Shown piece by piece: positions 1-31,605 of a stretch of DNA of 64,000 nt; the stretch's first letter is position 1; every line of letters starts with the position of its first letter. A program made the translations under genes and the position numbers. The notes beneath the pieces were generated by a model. That model saw only the letters and a list, made by a program, of their open reading frames with translations, did not search any database and was not told the origin of the DNA. Origin of the DNA: Petrosia ficiformis (taxonomy: Eukaryota > Porifera > Demospongiae > Haplosclerida > Petrosiidae); NCBI GenBank assembly GCA_947044365.1, contig OX345636.1:8886001-8950000 (forward strand). Direction: 5' to 3'.

Positions 1-914
1 ACGTATTATTTTTGAGCCGTACAGTAGGATGTGAATTACTTGAGAAATCTTTTAGGCAATTAAATATCATGCTTTTTATGGATTTTGATCCATACCACAA
101 AATATAATATCCTTGATATTTAGTCACATGATTACATGTTAATAGTCATGTCTATAAACTACAAATATAAAATACACACTTTGTCACAAACAATCACTGA
201 ATTTTGCTACCTTAAAATATTACACTATGCAGTCCTATTGTTAGTAAGGTATTGAAATTATGTATCTAAATTAATAATAAAATTATTAGAATACAATTTT
301 CATTGGCTTCTATATGTTAGGTATGTGCAGATTGATACTAAAATACTTGATATATACAGTACTTATAGTTTTCTAACATTATCGATACTCTTTCTTCTGT
401 ATTGGTCATTTATGATACCATATTACATGTACTGTTTTGCTACTGTATATACATAAACTCACATAAAGTTTCACAGTGCTTCCACATATTTAAATGAATT
501 TGTATAAAATTAGATGTTTATCTAACCACATTCATTATGTACTTGTGCATTATCAAGTATCAATATTATACCATTGATACTGATTCCCAAACTACTTAGT
601 ATCGTATGAAAGTGAAAATTATTGGTATCACCCACCACTACTACGTGTACATGTACATGTAACATCATGTGTTTAATAGTATGAATATGTATTATTTAGT
701 CTGATTACAATACATCATGTGAATTAAATATTTTGTGAATTCTTAAGTATTGCAATTGCGTCCACTACATGACTTTACTAGTTAATATTAATAATGAGTA
801 TATAGATATCCTCATTCATAATTATCATCAAGTGACTCACTAGTTAATAAAGTGTATATACATGTAGTTGTCCTCATTTATAATTAATATCATGTGACTC
901 ATTATAAGTATATA
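1..914. other. AT-rich intergenic sequence, no gene seen
   Basis: No open frame with protein-like composition appears on either strand. The stretch holds short A/T runs and scattered ACATGT palindromes. Nothing more specific can be supported. Confidence 0.6.
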
Positions 915-1021
915 TTATCACCCAGATAACGGGAAATGTCACCAGTTTGATACAATACTATTACCATAAATCTGAAGGATGAGTGGCAATACATGTATCA
1001 AATGAGTGATATTTCCCAGTA
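915..1021. mobile_element. Diverged copy of the GGGAAATATTAC-type MITE
   Basis: The left end reads TTATCACCCAGATAACGGGA and the right end contains GATATTTCCCAG. The same order of blocks, including the central GAAGGATGAGTGGCA-like segment, occurs in the better preserved copy at 48,999-49,113. The flank to about 1,165 also resembles 49,440-49,610, so a larger non-autonomous element may be present. Confidence 0.5.
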
Positions 1022-1282
1022 TTCATTGGTGAATTGGTTACTAATACTTCCTGTCATGTGACTTCCAAAGTAATAACCAGCCTTAATCATGTGACTTGTA
1101 GTATAATACAGTAAAATATTATGTGATTTGAATTTCTCATACAAAGCACATTGGAACTTTGTTTCCATGGTAACTTTAATTACTATATGATATATAGTTT
1201 TGATCTCATGACTTCACTAGTTAATAATATGTATATACATGTAGATGTCCTCATTCATAATTATGATCTTGTGACTCATTAT

Positions 1283-2150
1283 AATTACCCTCGCCGCGTA
1301 GCGTAGGCGGAAGGGTACGGTAATCATTTTGTCTGTGTGTCTGTGTGTCTGTGTGTCTGTGTTTTAGCAATTTTTCTGGAAAAATAAAAACATTGACATT
1401 TCAAAAGAGGTACTGGTAGACTTCAAATTATACAAGGAAAAAAAATAACGTAGGAATTCTTCTTAAACCTTTCGGTTATAAAGTTATCACAATGTTTATA
1501 ACTCACGATTACTGTTTCCAGACTTGAGAACACTCGTGGAGGCATCTGGACACATCAAAACATAACTACTCCTGTATCATGACTATCGCTAGCAAAGCAC
1601 TACATAAAAGCAAACAAAATTTGGGTAGTGGTTGCTACAACATCGAGTACTGGCTCCAAGCATTCTCCATTACTTTCAAACTCCGCCTATTTCAATTTCA
1701 AGTCATGTGCTGTGCACGTTACTCGAACGTCAGCAGTTTTGAGGACCTGTCTATGCTGTCTTTGTGGAATATTTCACAAGACGAATTGAGGATCTTTCTT
1801 TCTTCTTTCAGATAATACAGAGACTAAAATGTAAGACTTATAGTATAGACAAGGAAGAGACTAGTATAATCATACTAAGTAATAAGTAGTGACATGTTAG
1901 TTTATATAATTTATATATATATATATATTATATATATATATCTATATCTATTATAATATTATTATAAAAACTAACATGCCAGTACGGTTTTATAACTTAA
2001 TATGTTTTATACACAAACTAAACAATCTGAAGTAAACATTCTCATTATTATATGACCATACAAACGAGCAATGATAATTATAATCTTTTGGCATATTATA
2101 TTTCGAAATTATAGTTTGTATTACCTTGCCACGTAGGCGAGGGTCCCGTC
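1283..2150. repeat. Dispersed repeat with a GCGTAGGCGG-type GC-rich end
   Basis: A GC-rich start (TTACCCTCGCCGCGTAGCG) is followed by a short GTCTGTGT microsatellite. The same start and microsatellite order occurs at 23,797, so this is a repeat family. A further GC-rich block (CACGTAGGCGAGGGTCCCG) at about 2,130 may be the other end. An AT microsatellite lies near 1,912-1,950. No coding frame is convincing, and the 78-residue open frame at 1,579-1,815 has no recognisable domain. Confidence 0.45.
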
Positions 2151-3560: not shown

Positions 3561-5692
3561 CTGAATATATTTACAAGTTATATTACATGTTTACAAGACT
3601 CATGTAGTGTTTCTATATTAATATAATATCAAGTATTATCACTAATATAATAATGTAAACATGTTATTATAATGTGATGAGTACTAAACTATAATATATC
3701 ACATTATGATATTTCATGTTCTTTATACTAGGAACTAGATAATTATGATGTACATATCACAAGATGATATAAATATATTATTATATTTTATATCATCTAG
3801 TGTTATATCATGAATGAATCATACTTTTGATATTTTTAGTGTCTGGATATTCATATTTATAATGTAAAGTATGTAATGTATTACCTCATTATATTGATTT
3901 AAGTAACTACTAACTAACAGACTTAGTGTTTATATTATCTGTTCAGTACTATACAAGATAAGAAATATGAACACAATCATCATCTATCATCATTTTATTG
4001 ATTTGACTAGTTCAGTTTATGTGCAGATATAAAATGAATATCCTAACATTAAAAATCCATTCAGATATATAGTAATTAAATGAATATTCAGATAGAATGG
4101 ATATTCATTCCAGTCCTAGTACATAGTCATATAGAATATTAATATCATTATGATAGAAGGACAAAGGTTGGTTGTGTTCAAATACAAATGTTCATCATAG
4201 TGTGGTTGTATTGAATGAGATTATTAACACAAAACATGTGATCCATCCTACAACTGATAGTTGTGTATATTAATAAACACTGAGTGTAGTATAAATATAT
4301 TTCAATCAGTTCAGTGAATAGTGAAGAGTACATTTCACTGAATATAAATGTAATTATACACATGTAATGATAAATCATTCATATTAGTATAGTAACATAT
4401 TATAATCAAAACTAAACCTATTAAATTATATTAATGATTATAATAATTACATAATGTGATGATCATAATCATAACCAGTATTCTTATTATTAAATCACTA
4501 CGTGTCTTGTAATATACTATAGTATAAAACTATTATATATGAAGTTATCACATTATTCATTAGCTAACTGTGAACTACAAGACAATGTATAAACATGACT
4601 ATGAATCTAATTATGATGTAATTATCATTTGTTATCTCTATAGATATCAGTCTCCTGATTTTATCACAAACTTTGGAACATACTTCAAGGAAACACCAAC
4701 TGGTACCTTTGTTCAATATGGCTGCTGTTATCATAGGAGAGTGAACCAACCCAGCAAGAATGTCACAGAATGAGGTGAGTGTTTCGAACATATTAGATAT
4801 ATAATTATATATTATATAAATATTATATAGATAATAATAATTTATACATGTCTATATTATGTATTTCATACCAGAAGCTCATGAAAGGGAATGACTCCCA
4901 CACAAATTATAGTAATTACACAAGTGATGTTTCTTATCATAGAATGCAGTTTATGTTACATGTTTCTATTATAATTCATAACTAGATATCATGTATAATA
5001 AACTATGTCTATAGTGACTACCTGTACATGTGGGATACATGTGTTTTATACCTTTTGTATATATCTATTAGTTAACTTAAGACATGCTAAATTATATCAA
5101 ATCACATTTCAAAGTGTGTATGTATTTATCTTAAGTTCAGTGCAATCATCACTGAGATATGTGTCTCATTATATTTGTATGGAAATCCTATTCATGAGCT
5201 TCTGTGTGTTACTATGCACATCTGTACTTTACAATCAATAGTAACAGGTTAGTTATATCTTGTGTTAGGGATATATGTACATGTAATATAATCATAATCT
5301 ACATCTGTCTTGATCACTGTGTGGTAATGATTCACTATATCTATAGTCCTGGTAACAGGATCAACTTGATCTTAGGATCCAGGCAACAATGAATATACGT
5401 ATTTCTCTTCCAGCAGTGATAATTAAATATGATCATTCCAATCAAACTCATAATTACACCTAAGCTCATAAACGAATCATACATACATGTATGGTTATCT
5501 TGATAGCTAGTCGAGGTGGATTATAACTGAATTCATTTAATAGCAAACATTCCAGTCTTATTGCCTGGAGTGTCGACACAGTGGTTTGGTTTAATTTAAA
5601 TACACTTATATGTATGACATCAGTGTATGGGAAGGGGACTGTGTAATAATACATGTATGTCATATGAACAGATGTTGTATATTGTCAGTATA
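3561..5692. other. AT-rich stretch without a supported gene
   Basis: Only short open frames of biased composition are present. The segment 4,647-4,773 sits between an acceptor-like TCTATAG and a donor-like GAGGTGAGTG and is open on both strands, but no protein family is recognised. I do not call it a gene. Confidence 0.5.
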
Positions 5693-24345: not shown

Positions 24346-25677
24346 TTCATTTATTATAGTACACATCATATATGTAATATTATCATACCTTGAATATAAT
24401 CACATGTTTCCTAATGGAACTTGTAATTTTATTGATCCTTCAACTAATATATCCCATAATTGTAATGAGTGGTAGTATTATCTGTATAATAATTATAATG
24501 ATATCACACTTATTAATATGTCTGGATAAACATGAATATCAGGAGTATCACATGATCAATACTCAATGTCGAGCACCTAGCTTATCACACTATAGTATAT
24601 AAACCTAATAGTAACTGATAGTATAAGATGACTGGTATAATATTTCACACCTCTGAATACCATAGTAAATTAGTAATCTCAGTTTACACTTGTCAGTGTT
24701 TCATTTACTATTAATTATTAACCTTTAGAGGGCTGCACTTGCTGGTGCTTCTACAGCAGATATCTTCACTTTCTGTACCCAAACTTGGCTCTTTTTCCGA
24801 CATGGAGTACTAGTTCTAGCAACTTGATTACCAGGACTCAAAAGTCCCCAAGCATTTCGTAGGACTAATTTAAATGCAGTGTTCTCCCTCTTTAGACTTC
24901 AACTAGGGCATACAAAACAAAAACTGCTGCATGTTAGCACCAGTTACACCATGTCACCAGGTTTTACAAGAGAAATGACTTAGCTACTCACCAAATTGCA
25001 TGGATGGGTTTATTGTGTGTGTGGGGGGGGAGGGGAGAGGAGCGAGGCTTGGAGTTGGTAGTCAAAGGGGCATACCCCACCTTCGAAATTTATGAATGGG
25101 TTACAGGAGCAAAGGGCAACTGAAAAACCATCAACATTATTAGCCATTTTCATGGTCTTATCCCTAACACCAATTACAAACATCTGAAGTGCTTCGTAAT
25201 GCTAGGAACACACTCCAAACTGCATAGAGGTCAAATGCCACATATATGGCCATCAGCCATATGTAAGAACACAAAGTAGACTAACTAATAACACTTTATA
25301 TTACAAAAATACAAACTATGAATACTAAACTAATGAGTATACTGTATAATGTAATGGGTAATTTTAAACACTTCAGTTGGTTACAAGAGTTTCAACGTAA
25401 TTTTATTATCCTCAATGTTGAATTGTTATTCCTGCTAGGTAATATCTACATGTACTGGTATCGATCTATATTGACTAGTACATATACATGTCATGATACA
25501 GCATAGTAATGTTAATATATATAGTATACATGTAGTATTATAGGTACAACCTGTGGTGTATTATTATCATTCTATCTGTGAAAACAACAGATGTTACTTA
25601 CTCATTTCAGTGTAATTAGTATATACATGAATTTGTACTTATAATATCAAATAACATTTGTTGTATTCCACAGAAGA
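24346..25677. other. Non-coding sequence, no gene seen
   Basis: A G-rich run at 25,020-25,055 (GTGTGTGGGGGGGGAGGGGA) stands out locally. Open frames are short and of biased composition. Confidence 0.5.
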
Positions 25678-25739
25678 TAGCAGAATATGGAACGCCAAAC
25701 AGGACAAAAATACCAGTCCCGATTTACAAGTCTAAATAA

Positions 25740-25965
25740 CCAATTTTAGATTTTGAGTAACTGATTGACGATTTTGAGTAACCGTTTGTCTATTATCGAT
25801 TATCGATTATCGATTTTGAGTAACCGATTGTCGATTATTATCGATTATCGATTTTGAGTTTTCGAATCGATTATCGATTTTGAGTTTTCGGAGTTTTCGG
25901 AGTTTTCGATTATCGATTTTCGATTTTCCATTTTGAGTTTTCGATTATCGATTTTGATTTAAAAA
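25740..25965. repeat. Left subterminal CGAT/GAGTAACCG array
   Basis: Short repeats alternate ATTATCGATTATCGATT with TTTTGAGTAACCGA. The mirrored motif set lies inside the right end at about 30,835-31,060. Paired arrays inside both ends suggest transposase-binding sites. Confidence 0.8.
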
Positions 25966-26016
25966 CCGTGAACAGATTATAGAAACCACGTGCGTAAAAA
26001 ACCGTTAACAATTTAA

Positions 26017-27168
26017 ATGGCGGTAACCCAAGAGGATTTGGAGAAGGCTAAAGAAGCGATCCACTTCTTATCATCTCTTTCAGAACAGTCTGTGGCTTGT
26101 CCAAACCAAAGTAGAGAGCCATCAGTCTCAGAAAGCCAACCGTCTACAAGCAGTGGTAGAGGTAAGTAATCATTCCAGCATAAATTATTATTGTATGATA
26201 AAGAGCCAACAATATGAATATTCTAGTACAACTGTGAGCTATCTCCAAGTATATTATACTTGTTATAAAGGGATATGAAACGTTATGACAGTGTACCACA
26301 ATATAATTGTGATTATCATTCAATTTAGGATTCATAAGTACAAGATGTCAGGCTGTATTGGATAATTTAGCTAAAGTTCGATCTAATTTTGGCCAGAACA
26401 ACCAAACAAGAAGTAAACGTTATTCAGAAGTTGGCAAACTCTTTAAGTCATCCAAGAAATTAAAGATGACTACAAGAAAAATCACTCCTTGGACCCATCG
26501 ATTTGTTTGCTTGTCAGACTGCAGTCAGCACTATATACCAACAACAGCTAGTCAGAAAGACACTTTGATGTCTGCTGGTCTTGGGGAGAAAAAGATAGTT
26601 TTTGAAGATGTTGATTGTTCTGCTGAAATTTTCAAAGATACTTTGCTACAAAATTATCCTAAACTGAAAGAAGGAGGCGGATATCATCTCTGTAAATGCA
26701 AATCAAATTCAAGAGAACTTGAGTCACTCTCATCAGCTGTTTTAGTTTCACCAAGGGCACTACAACAATGTGGTGGAAACTCACGAACATATATAAGGCC
26801 ATTGCAAAGAGATCTAGATTTATCTCGTGAAAATGAATCTACTGAGAAGATAGTAAGTGTTGTAGAGAAATTGTGTATTAAAGACTGTACATGTATGTTT
26901 TAGATTACAGAAGTGTGTCTTTCTTGTGGAAAAGATATCCCAATAGATGACTTAGAACTTCATGTTGTAGTTTGCAGAGTTGAAGATAGAAAGTCACCAA
27001 GGTATTAATGTAAAATCAGAGTTTTTAAAAAGATATAATAATTATATAACAACAATCCTTATTGTGAATGTTACTCTCTTTATAATAATTATCATTGCCT
27101 ATGTAAGTACTTTATTACAATTCAAAACAAGTAAGAGAACTACAACATAAAGGCATCATAATCTGAAC

Positions 27169-27207
<39 letters not shown>

Positions 27208-29271
27208 TCATTAGACAGGGCAAGGGCCCTGCACCAGTACAACAATAAGCAATATATAATTATATAGGGCAACAGGCCAACTATAAATTAACACATGGTC
27301 GTTACATAAAACTTGATTCATTACACCTACACTCTATTTTTAATCAAGTTCTGAATTGATTGACATCTCTGATGATGATGATTTACCAAAATATCCTGCT
27401 TTTAGTGTTGATATTGATGATGCTCGATCACCATTTCACTCAAAAAATCAAGAGTAAGTTCATACAAATTATTGTGTCTATCGACTGTTGAGCAGTGAAT
27501 CTTTATTAATCAACAGAAATTTTACACCGTCAAATGGTTACGGTAGCTCTTCTGACTTAATGATCCCGACTCTTTCGAATGATGTTCAGTAGTAAGTAAT
27601 CTATTAAATCACTCCTGTATATAGGCATCAGTGTTTTATTAAAGTCTTGTAGGCATCCTAAATTATAATTTAAGATTTTTAATCCTATACCAATAAATAC
27701 AGCTCTCCGACTCCTCCACCCTATTCACCTGTTGCGCAGTGAGTTTGATATTTACGTGTTTGCTGTTTGTCATACAAATTATTACAGATATCCTGCAGTA
27801 AACATATCACTCAGTGCCATAATTAAAATGATTCAAAAGAAGTTTAATATTGACATGTCTCCAGAATGCGAAAGTAAGTTGATTTTAGAAATCAGAAGGA
27901 CTGATGTCATAGAAGATGCATTAATGCATGCATCAAAAAAGAAGTTTTGTCCTACTAAGACCCTCAAAGTATGTACACAGGTCACCATTACCTATATATT
28001 TACTTATGCTTTGCTTATAATTGGCAGATAATTTTTGTTAGTGAATCAGGAGAAGATACTGGTGGTCTCCGTCGCGAGTTTTTCCGTCTTTTATGTCATG
28101 GTATAACTGAAAATTACTTTATTGGAACAGATTATATTAAAACCTTCCAGCAGAATGTACCAGCATTACAGGTATTAATTTAAATGCAAAATTATTTTAA
28201 GTACACTGCTTCATTATAATAGAGAAACATTTTCAAGTATCTTGGTATATGGACAGCGATGTCCATTACTCAGGATGGTCCTGGGCTCCCTGTACTTATG
28301 CCTGCATTATATGAATACATGATTTCAAGAGATTTGACTTCAGATAGCACTATTAAAAATGATGAAATTCCTGATCTTTATGTCAAGGGATTGATTGAAT
28401 TAGTAAGCTGTATATAGAGTCAGTAAACTATTATCTGAATAATTGCACTTTGCCATTTATATAGATCATATCTGCATCTGATAATAAACAGCTTCAAGCA
28501 ATTTTTTCTGATGAGTTATATAGTAGTTTACTAATTGAAACAGGTTACTGTAAGTCCCTTTTACATATCACTACAGCTGATGCTGAACATGTAGTTGATA
28601 TTTTAAAGAGGTATCACTGCCTTATCAAAGTGAAGGCCCAGATAGACCAATTCATTGATGGTCTTCATTGCCTTGAAATTGATGCAATTATACAGCAATA
28701 TCCAGATAAATTGAAACCTTTATTTGTAGATGATATCTCTAAACGAACTATTACACTAGGTTTGTAAACATGAATTTTGTTAACAACATGCACATCATAC
28801 ATTCTCCATTAATTTTTTCCTAGACTATATTAAATCTTTAGTAGTAGCTCATTTTTCACCAAAAGAGAATCAAGAAAAACGGAAAAAAGAGGAGGCTATG
28901 TACATGTACTTTGTAAACTTCTTGGATGAATGTGAAGGTTATTTTCAGCAACAAATACAATAATCACAAACTTACTATAATATCTTTATACAGAAGGAAC
29001 TACAGATGTTAGTATGGGGGAGATATTGTCGTTTTTCACTGGTTCTGACCGTGAGCCACCATTGGGCTTCCCATATATCCCAACTTTATTATTTGATGAA
29101 AAAAATACATTGGCAACTTCCTCAACATGCTCTCTTACTTTAACCTTACCTGTTCATAAAGATTACAACACTTTTAAAGAAGGCATATTATCTGTTGGTG
29201 GGACCACTTACACATGCCTCCACATGTACAATTTGAAACTCAAAATTTTGTATATAAAACATGAAGTATAA
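26017..29271 (+). CDS. UBZ-HECT ubiquitin ligase-like protein, 12 exons, transposon cargo
   Basis: Exons are 26,017-26,161, 26,329-26,852, 26,904-27,001, 27,349-27,453, 27,517-27,591, 27,703-27,738, 27,788-27,968, 28,028-28,171, 28,223-28,402, 28,465-28,759, 28,824-28,937 and 28,994-29,271. All introns are GT..AG and all phases agree, giving about 724 residues without a stop. Residues 180-199 form C-x2-C-x11-H-x3-C (CLSCGKDIPIDDLELHVVVC), the spacing of ubiquitin-binding UBZ fingers. From about residue 330 the protein reads as a HECT domain: SGEDTGGLRREFFRLL, then GIWTAMSITQDGPGLPVL, and near the C-terminus LATSSTCSLTLTLP with the catalytic Cys at about 678. The layout resembles G2E3-like HECT proteins. 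A ligase acting on ubiquitin is expected; its substrate is unknown. The start is the first Met of a frame opening just inside the left array. Confidence 0.85.
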
Positions 29272-29323
29272 TTTTTTATTATGATTTGTAATAGTCTGAA
29301 TAATAACTGAACCAATACAGTTT

Positions 29324-30781
29324 TCATGGAGTGTTATGGTCTTCAGAAAGACAAGACAAAACATAATGCTTAACATTAATATACTGTTGTATCCAGATGT
29401 GATGATTAGATTGAAGACCCACTAGGTCACTGCTCCCGAGTGTCATCTGAACAATTATGCTGTCAAGATTGGCTAATTGTGTCTGATCAAGTAAAGCTGG
29501 TAGTTCCGGTACGTGAACAGTTTCATCAATATCTCCTGCAATTAGTTCATTCCAATCATTACCATAATCATCGTAATTGACCTAATAAAAAGGGTGTAAT
29601 TTCATTTCAGTTGCATTAGCTGAACTAACCTCTTCATTTGGTGGTTGAATTTCTGATATCCACAACTGTAGTGGTGTTTTATTATGCTCAGTTCGCAAGC
29701 GATGATTACACCATCCATGTCTAAATTGGTCCAAATGAGTCTGGATCTTGGAAAGAAAAACCATATGTAATACATAAAGGTCAACATTGGAATTTGGATT
29801 CAACAGCCCTTCCTCTTCCATTGCATAAAATAAGTAATAGTAACAACTAACGCATCCAGCAAATAAGTCACGCCATAACCGTTCGATTCTTTGGTTATGG
29901 ACACTTCTGCCAGTTATCATGCTTCCACGGCCACTTCCCCTGTGACTGATCATAAAATGTGCTATCAACACATTCTCTCCTCCATGATCACTTCTTACTC
30001 TCGAAGGAATGTTGTAGTTTTCAACACCTTCAAGGAAAGCATCAAAAGCTGTCTCTGCTTTGTTATTTGTAGCAACTTTAAGATACACGACTAATCGGCT
30101 ATATCCATCTATCCCTCCATGAATTACAAATTTCCATCTTATCAATTTGTGATAGCCATCAACATGCCATAAATGATTTGGTCCAGCAACATTATAAACT
30201 CTTCTATGTAGAGCTCTTGTCGATCGGGATTTAGTTCCTTCTGGATCAGCAAAATAAAGTGCTTCTCTGACTCTGCGCCTCTGTACATGAATATTCTGAC
30301 TTCTGAGAAGACCATCTATGCTCTTTTCTCCTAAATTTGGATTTTCATGAGTCCATCTAGTAATCTTTTGGACTAACTCATCATCAGAAATCTGTGAATA
30401 AAAGTCGCTTTTAGTCAATCCAGCCTCCCTTAAACGACGCTGGATTGTTTTTTCTGAACAACAATAAATATCAGCTATGGCAACAGTTGTAAATCCATGC
30501 TGGATGAAAAATGCCACTTGACGGGAAGTGATTATTAACTTTGGTCGTCCAACTTGCCCTCTTACTACAGTTTCAAACATGCCTAATAGTGCATCCCTGA
30601 TCTCTTGTATCATGCCTACAACTTCACGGCCTACAGTAGCCTCCATAAATAAAGCACATTGCAGTAAGTCATCAGCAATTTCTACCAGATTCTGAACATC
30701 AGCATTTTCTCTGGCTATTTCAAGTTTTATGAACAATATTCCATCTGAAATGGTATCCATTTTGATTCCTGTCACGTGCAC
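29324..30781 (-). CDS. DDE/integrase-type transposase, two exons
   Basis: Exons 29,630-30,781 and 29,324-29,581 are joined over a 48-bp GT..AG intron in phase 0, giving about 469 residues. A helix-turn-helix lies at about 83-120 (ADIYCCSEKTIQRRLREAGL). The catalytic core contains D208 (LWHVDGYHKL), D265 (RSDHGGEN) and E300 (HNQRIERLWRD), a DD34E arrangement close to the DD35E of retroviral and IS3-type integrases. The gene converges on the HECT gene, with only 52 bp between stop codons. It probably catalyses movement of the 5.44-kb element. The C-terminal exon (YDDYGNDWNEL..) has no recognised domain. No break is visible. Confidence 0.85.
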
Positions 30782-30796
30782 ATCACGTGCATGTAC

Positions 30797-31080
30797 TAAA
30801 AAAAAAAAAAAAAAAAAAAAGAACTGAAAATTTAAAATCGGTTACTCAAAATCGATAATCGATAATCGACAATCGGTTACTCAAAATCGATGATCGATAA
30901 TCGATAATCGACAATCGGTTACTCAAAATCTAAAATCAATAATCGACAAACGGTTACTCAAAATCGACAACGGTTACTCAAAATCTAAAATCAATAATCG
31001 ATAATCGACAGTCGGTTACTCAAAATCGACAATCGGTTACTCAAAATCTAAAATTGGTTATTTAGACTTGAAAATTGGTT
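30797..31080. repeat. Poly-A run and right subterminal CGAT array
   Basis: An A run (about 24) at 30,797-30,820 is followed by repeated CGGTTACTCAAAATCGATAA motifs, the inverse of the left array. The outermost part duplicates TTGGTTATTTAGACTTG. Confidence 0.8.
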
Positions 31081-31429
31081 ATTTAGACTTGTAAATCGGG
31101 ACTGGTATTTTTGTCCTGTTTGGCGTTCCATAGCAGAATAGTCCAGTTGCATGTAAGAACTATGGAATGCAATAATGAATAATTGCACATGATGTCACAA
31201 TGTGGTTACCAGTAGAAATGTATTGCTTCCTATTAGCTAAAGTGTTCAAATTTAAAATTGTTGCTACGTAGATACTATATGGTATACTCTACATTGTACA
31301 TGTACATGTATATTAGTGAAAAATGGGCTAAACTAGAATCTTCAGTGAACATGCCACTCTTTGTTATGAGACAAAATGACAAGTGGTCCAAGAGATACAG
31401 CAAGTTTTGTCAACGATAACTGGTCACAA

Positions 31430-31605
31430 GTTTTACATACATGTATGTGGAAATACTAGAACAAACAATCCTAATGTGTAATTCTATCGATTTTCCAAGG
31501 AATCTAAAAGGAGAGCCCTAAAAGTGTTTGAGACATCTGAGGAAGACATTAGTCATGTTTGCTCTCAACATTTTCCTGAAGGAGATGTCAACAAGATCAT
31601 TGTGT
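31430..31605 (+). pseudogene. THAP-domain remnant
   Basis: The frame reads CGNTRTNNPNV, a stop, then FYRFSKESKRRAL ... HVCSQHFPEGD. FYRF and CSQHF are signatures of the zinc-binding THAP DNA-binding domain found in P-element and some Harbinger-type transposases. The in-frame TAA at about 31,471 and the lack of following exons mark it as a relic. Confidence 0.6.

Follow-up and report, generated by a model that had tools for sequence, protein, structure and literature searches.

The 64,000-nucleotide stretch of the sponge Petrosia ficiformis genome analysed here (assembly GCA_947044365.1, contig OX345636.1, positions 8,886,001 to 8,950,000; hereafter the window) contains a DNA transposon whose ends, target-site duplication and transposase type fit assignment to the IS3EU/GingerRoot superfamily, and which carries a predicted gene for a HECT-type ubiquitin ligase beside its transposase gene. 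Many lineages of the superfamily in this genome have such a ligase as a regular second gene of long standing. We consider it very probable that the window element is a cut-and-paste transposon of this kind, with the HECT gene as its oppositely oriented second gene, and that gene looks like a working part of the elements, not an accidental passenger.

Evidence for this association comes from transposase loci across the genome. The transposase profile PF24764 gave 139 genome matches, from which the first 51 rows (E 4.7e-44 or better) were used; among the 88 weaker rows left out are fragments and additional pieces of loci already represented. HECT matches came from three queries, namely PF00632 (95 rows) and the HECT proteins of the window (40 of 80 rows entered) and of locus L019 (48 of 109 rows entered); most omitted rows were repeated hits at one locus. 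A first count found a HECT match within 6 kb of 36 of the 51 transposase loci; given how much of the genome lies that close to any of these matches, 0.3 would be expected. Further matches brought the count to 42/51, of which 31 were convergent, 10 divergent and one on the same strand. The single same-strand match is the HECT gene of a neighbouring copy (copy C, below), hence 41 of the 51 loci have a HECT or HECT-like gene on the opposite strand (32 plain HECT and nine distant HECT-like). In locus L036, a strongly diverged HECT-like gene (2-1681, plus strand) is convergent with a PF24764 transposase; Pfam identified no HECT domain in this second gene, and hhalign aligned it to the element HECT profile with a probability of 92.6% over 148 columns. 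Near copies of the L036 gene adjoin three more transposase loci, and five weak HECT loci (E 4e-9 to 3e-4) also match it. As to gene order, the arrangement is head to head (divergent) in L026, L027 and related copies on C1, C5 and C13, and convergent in most other families.

In the window, the HECT gene is predicted to comprise 12 exons on the plus strand, listed here with the position and phase of conserved 5' introns among the lineages compared below:

26017..26161, plus strand: HECT exon 1 with start codon; similar N-terminus in predicted protein P0134
26329..26852, plus strand: HECT exon 2
26490..26801, plus strand: predicted ubiquitin-like beta-grasp domain, residues 103-206
26904..27001, plus strand: HECT exon 3
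26913..26972, plus strand: CCHC motif, residues 228-247; also in L032, L026 and L027
27349..27453, plus strand: HECT exon 4
27517..27591, plus strand: HECT exon 5
27703..27738, plus strand: HECT exon 6
27788..27968, plus strand: HECT exon 7
28028..28171, plus strand: HECT exon 8; 5' intron 389/phase 0 common to L032
28223..28402, plus strand: HECT exon 9; 5' intron 437/0 in 4/7 lineages
28465..28759, plus strand: HECT exon 10; 5' intron 497/0 in 7/7 lineages
28824..28937, plus strand: HECT exon 11; 5' intron 595/1 in 3/7 lineages
28994..29271, plus strand: HECT exon 12 with stop, original context lost after 29181; 5' intron 633/1 in 7/7 lineages
29128..29130, plus strand: catalytic Cys678 codon; Cys in 10/10 aligned element HECTs

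All introns are GT..AG, the phases close, and the 2175 nt of coding sequence specify 724 amino acids with no inner stop. This bears out the preliminary description, made from the sequence of the window, of two convergent genes whose frames and splice phases close without a stop, one of them encoding a HECT protein of about 724 residues with its catalytic Cys. PF00632 matches the predicted protein at E=2.7e-12 (47.4 bits against a cut-off of 23.9), and P0134, a predicted protein from another source, runs through the join of exons 1 and 2 at 44% identity. Several HECT subfamilies match at similar scores among Protein Data Bank (PDB) profiles, so no subfamily was assigned.

The predicted domain order of the window ligase is a ubiquitin-like fold, the CCHC motif and the HECT domain. 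The CCHC motif occurs in all four models covering the region (B, L032, L026 and L027, the last two near-identical), with one extra residue before the last Cys in L032, and its spacing in the window protein presumably resembles that of RAD18-type UBZ4. Of the UBZ domain named in the preliminary description, the motif (C-x2-C..H-x3-C) is present, but no Pfam UBZ profile scored over cut-off in the window protein, and a relative from the sponge Ephydatia matched only C2HC-type zinc fingers, below cut-off (E 0.07 and 0.08). At L038 (C16:1261500-1264000) an N-terminal domain resembling the one in the element HECT stands alone; it seems to be split between frames, and the genome's listed PF24764 matches include none close by.

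Ten lineages, selected among the retrieved loci because both genes had usable models (360 HECT and 355 transposase columns; four rows, L013, L022, L024 and L025, hold frameshift steps in one or both models), were 25-49% identical in HECT and 39-61% identical in transposase. The catalytic Cys is kept in 10/10 rows and the terminal F-G in all nine rows that reach the end. HECT and transposase distance matrices are correlated (Mantel r=0.69, 0/20000 permutations); both trees join L019, L022 and L023, and both join L026 and L031, with disagreement on B, L013, L024, L025 and L032. Among seven independent frameshift-free models (B, L032, L026, L019, L023, L013 and L031), introns 497 phase 0 and 633 phase 1 are present in every one, 437/0 in four, 595/1 in three and 389/0 in two, a result that leans on the GT/AG choice of the spliced aligner from which the models derive. 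Even so, the same intron position and phase across such divergence would otherwise be hard to obtain.

Transposons do capture host exons, and the damaged HECT end of the window copy, together with the broken copies C and D, would fit a ligase gene recently captured from the host by one element and since carried as a hitch-hiking passenger or pseudogene. We regard such a history as highly improbable: introns and catalytic residues are common to lineages of 25-49% HECT identity, 41 of the 51 transposase rows have a HECT or HECT-like gene beside them, and long HECT DNA matches all lie within element copies, the remainder of the DNA search returning short pieces and an intron repeat. Since the gene retains introns, it is unlikely to be a processed copy. 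Recent capture was rejected on the shared introns and the spread, and the earlier claim that the ligase is cargo encoded by the element, not a captured pseudogene, has strong support from the second copy with both genes between the same ends, the many divergent lineages, the shared introns and the correlated divergence of the two genes.

The preliminary description had also looked to purifying selection on the HECT frame as confirmation of cargo. Values in that direction come from two pairs of related copies, L026-L027 (2.5 synonymous and 1.5 nonsynonymous differences, dN/dS 0.17) and L023-L033 (6.0 and 5.0, dN/dS 0.24), and none from the window's own family. Between lineages, HECT dN is 0.49-0.75 and dS 2.0-2.8 or saturated, which bounds dN/dS below one only. 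The L026-L027 transposases have a dN/dS of 0.95 on 12 differences.

The transposase gene of the window element lies on the strand opposite to the HECT gene and converges with it:

29630..30760, minus strand: transposase exon 1, ATG at 30760; includes D201, D258 and E293
29324..29581, minus strand: transposase exon 2 with stop

The predicted protein of 462 amino acids matches the Pfam family rva_4 (PF24764, E=1.3e-83). Residues D201, D258 and E293 are invariant in the ten-sequence transposase alignment, and the 34 residues between D258 and E293 give the DD34E signature, which together with the PF24764 match agrees with the transposase class first proposed. We infer that rva_4 corresponds to IS3EU from the ends and duplications. 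The ends TATGG..CCATA are present in the window, B, L013, L015 and L016; TA starts were also found in L019, L020, L022, L023, L026, L027 and L031, but these are no independent test, since the element-end finder sought TA ends only.

The boundaries of the element and its insertion site are as follows:

25686..31132, no strand: IS3EU/GingerRoot-type DNA transposon with TA..TA termini, 5447 bp
25680..25685, no strand: target-site duplication GCAGAA, 6 bp, left; empty sites seen
25686..25747, plus strand: terminal inverted repeat, left, 62 bp, 100% identical to right end
25748..25960, plus strand: left subterminal array of TCGATTATCGATTTTGAG-like repeats
27098..27331, no strand: repeat with TA run inside HECT intron 3, unrelated to the element, with its own matches across the genome
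30826..31070, minus strand: right subterminal array of TCGATTATCGATTTTGAG-like repeats
31071..31132, minus strand: terminal inverted repeat, right, 62 bp
31133..31138, no strand: target-site duplication GCAGAA, 6 bp, right

The element had been placed at 25688..31130, which located it correctly but left each end 2 bp short; its matched inverted ends proved perfect over 62 bp, and its flanking direct repeat is the 6-bp GCAGAA. The TATGG..CCATA ends recur, with GTTTTC on both sides, in a sister copy, B (G000:C1:28766834-28772594; locus L009 2035-7795), so the TA is part of the element and the duplication is 6 bp, not 10. A 10-bp duplication (TAGCAGAATA) was ruled out accordingly, with copy B and L013 both placing the TA inside the element. 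The insertion site is itself a repeat family (window 25586-25685 and 31139-31232), the left part of which has 12 other matches on C1. The joined flanks align in 4/4 fetched uninterrupted copies of this repeat (192-199 bp, 91-96%, one gap opening each), and the unfilled site is visible in the printed stretch of three of them. A chance structure is ruled out by the perfect 62-bp ends, the duplications and the empty sites. The subterminal TCGATTATCGATTTTGAG-like repeats are possible candidate binding sites for the transposase. Two MITE-like elements of 185 bp, L015 (C3:8173177-8173361) and L016 (C3:7815386-7815570), have similar ends and no genes, with flanking 6 bases that match at 5/6. To the right of the window element, a THAP-like coding fragment was noticed by eye at about 31420-31600.

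Separate insertion events can be read from the duplications. Both genes lie between identical ends in the window (GCAGAA) and in copy B (GTTTTC), each flanked by its own perfect 6-bp duplication; the preliminary description had proposed searching for the same two genes between the same ends elsewhere in the genome, and copy B has both. Eight further HECT-bearing loci from six other lineages also have perfect 6-bp duplications: L013 (GTCATC), L019 (TACGTC), L020 (ATTGTT; an element of 3410 bp, shorter than its relatives), L022 (TCTGTC), L023 (AGTTTC), L026 (GCCTAG), L027 (GTTATT) and L031 (TAAAGT). Over 5.1 kb, elements L026 and L027 share 98.9% identity, and the models of both their genes are free of frameshifts and stops; as their duplications differ, movement was probably recent. 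No perfect 6-bp pair was found at L010-L012, L014, L021, L024, L025, L030, L032-L035, L036 or L037, some of which were examined with short flanks.

The window copy itself is damaged, and its description as complete did not hold. Compared with sister copy B, it has undergone a deletion that gave its HECT gene a different C-terminus:

29181..29182, plus strand: 395-bp deletion junction; HECT C-terminus replaced

AGAA stands at both breakpoints, and copies B, C and D have extra DNA after the HECT residues ..DYNTFKE. The deletion costs the window HECT its last 15 residues (KLILSFKGHDGFGVI) and adds 29 others, so that the Phe at position -4 from the C-terminus, present in copy B, is absent; we take this residue to be needed for ligase activity. 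The window copy thus has an open transposase and a replaced HECT tail, and copy B a normal HECT tail and a transposase frameshifted by a 1-bp insertion. Copy C has a stop in its transposase, indels in its HECT gene, an altered left end, a right end that is kept and no 6-bp duplication. Copy D is rearranged, with ~90 bp of the transposase N-terminal coding region missing and its right end seen; its locus gave no match to the 5' portion of HECT. Given this damage among the close copies, assessment of the two genes has to rest on the superfamily and not on the window copy.

Several observations weigh against a ligase that is a general and functional component of these elements. The 51 transposase rows include near-identical copies (eight at 240.5 bits are one family) and are not independent events, and the pairing count covers PF24764 transposase loci only, with a HECT match within 6 kb. 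Of the 41 positives, nine fall in the distant HECT-like group, four being the L036 gene and its near copies and five being weak. A further nine of the 51 rows have no HECT match within 6 kb; at one of these, C2:9627128, the nearest lies just beyond, at C2:9633971. Locus L037, an IS3EU-type transposase locus that is also among the nine, has another convergent open frame (3650-3982 and 4169-5065, minus strand). Each of the four close copies examined (window, B, C and D) has damage in at least one of the two genes, and both are decayed in the older copy L012. Finally, no purifying selection on HECT is visible between the window and B (2 synonymous and 2 nonsynonymous differences) or between the window and C (5 and 11, with the HECT gene of C broken), comparisons within the window's own family that are uninformative owing to too few changes or broken genes.

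From these features we propose that the DDE transposase would cut at the TATGG..CCATA ends and integrate with a 6-bp stagger, and that the ligase, supplied by the same or another copy, would act in trans by tagging a host protein. The most likely target, put forward tentatively, is a host protein that silences or restricts the element, making the ligase an agent of counter-silencing. Alternatively, the ligase might regulate the element itself by ubiquitinating the transposase, either limiting overproduction or disassembling the complex after integration. The co-occurrence and co-divergence of the two proteins fit direct partners, but there is no sign of contact in the sequence, the two trees differ on B, L013, L024, L025 and L032, and identity between lineages is lower in HECT (25-49%) than in the transposase (39-61%), a disparity more in keeping with a protein pitted against a host target that keeps changing; we think regulation of the transposase unlikely. 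Somewhat less likely again is an action at cut sites, where chromatin or repair factors would be the substrates: the CCHC motif would recognise ubiquitin at the breaks, and the HECT domain would attach further ubiquitin. Presence of the motif in 4/4 models covering its region (B, L032, L026, L027) would suit such a role, but a UBZ identity is drawn from the motif, with no supporting profile in the window protein or the Ephydatia relative.

Many eukaryotic DNA transposons manage with a transposase alone. Here, deeply diverged lineages have kept a ligase beside it whose introns and catalytic residues are the same, suggesting that adding ubiquitin belongs to this superfamily's way of life in this genome, and the element ligase gives any search for the host protein controlling these elements a defined enzyme to start from. 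It is possible, and we offer it as a conjecture, that animal IS3EU/GingerRoot elements ancestrally carried a three-part ligase (ubiquitin-like domain, zinc motif and HECT) opposing host control, as a core component, and that many lineage-specific animal HECT genes and orphan ubiquitin-like exons are transposon genes or derive from them. A practical warning is that some annotated animal HECT genes may be transposon genes.

Outside this genome, the same domain order is found in related proteins of the sponges Ephydatia and, in part, Dysidea. The source records of P0134 (HECT N-terminus) and of P0003, a transposase, are both 369,215 bases long, which is suggestive only. Scans of viral contigs with P0134 and with the alignments of HECT and of the transposase returned no relative. 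A scan of genome contigs returned two short contigs binned with a sponge symbiont (3.4 and 3.7 kb) in which transposase relatives are present and no HECT match is better than E 0.2; they neither support nor exclude a HECT partner there. Among PubMed Central titles and abstract starts, a scope outside which Repbase Reports lies, we found no published description of HECT in IS3EU, and no paper in the PubMed Central collection searched contains both terms; a database note on it may exist in Repbase Reports. The superfamily and its capacity for enzyme cargo are already known; the HECT ligase as a regular second gene appeared in no listed title or abstract start.

Set against known systems, the window element shares its TA..TA termini, 6-bp target duplications and DDE integrase-like transposase with IS3EU/GingerRoot as described (PMC10045372), and differs in the HECT ligase gene beside its transposase, the word 'ubiquitin' occurring 0 times in that paper. 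With the HECT E3 ligases Rsp5, AREL1, Tom1 and E6AP, recovered as PDB profile matches, the element family has in common the HECT domain, catalytic Cys and C-terminal GFG; in contrast to them, the element ligase is transposon-borne and has an N-terminal predicted ubiquitin-like domain and a CCHC motif. Another close system is the fungal TET+ IS3EU (PMC12730594), which has 6-bp duplications, ends of the form TAYGG..CCRTA and extra enzyme genes, like the window element, and a transposase and alpha-kinase that are oppositely oriented, as are the transposase and HECT genes here. Its cargo is a TET/JBP dioxygenase and an alpha-kinase, with 'hect' and 'ubiquitin' each appearing 0 times in the paper, whereas the window cargo is a HECT ligase in an animal genome. 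Helitrons can carry VTD or OTU deubiquitinases (PMC9741609); these are rolling-circle elements with cargo that removes ubiquitin, whereas the predicted ligase of the window element would add it. HECT cargo in this sponge parallels both TET/JBP in fungal IS3EU and deubiquitinases in Helitrons.

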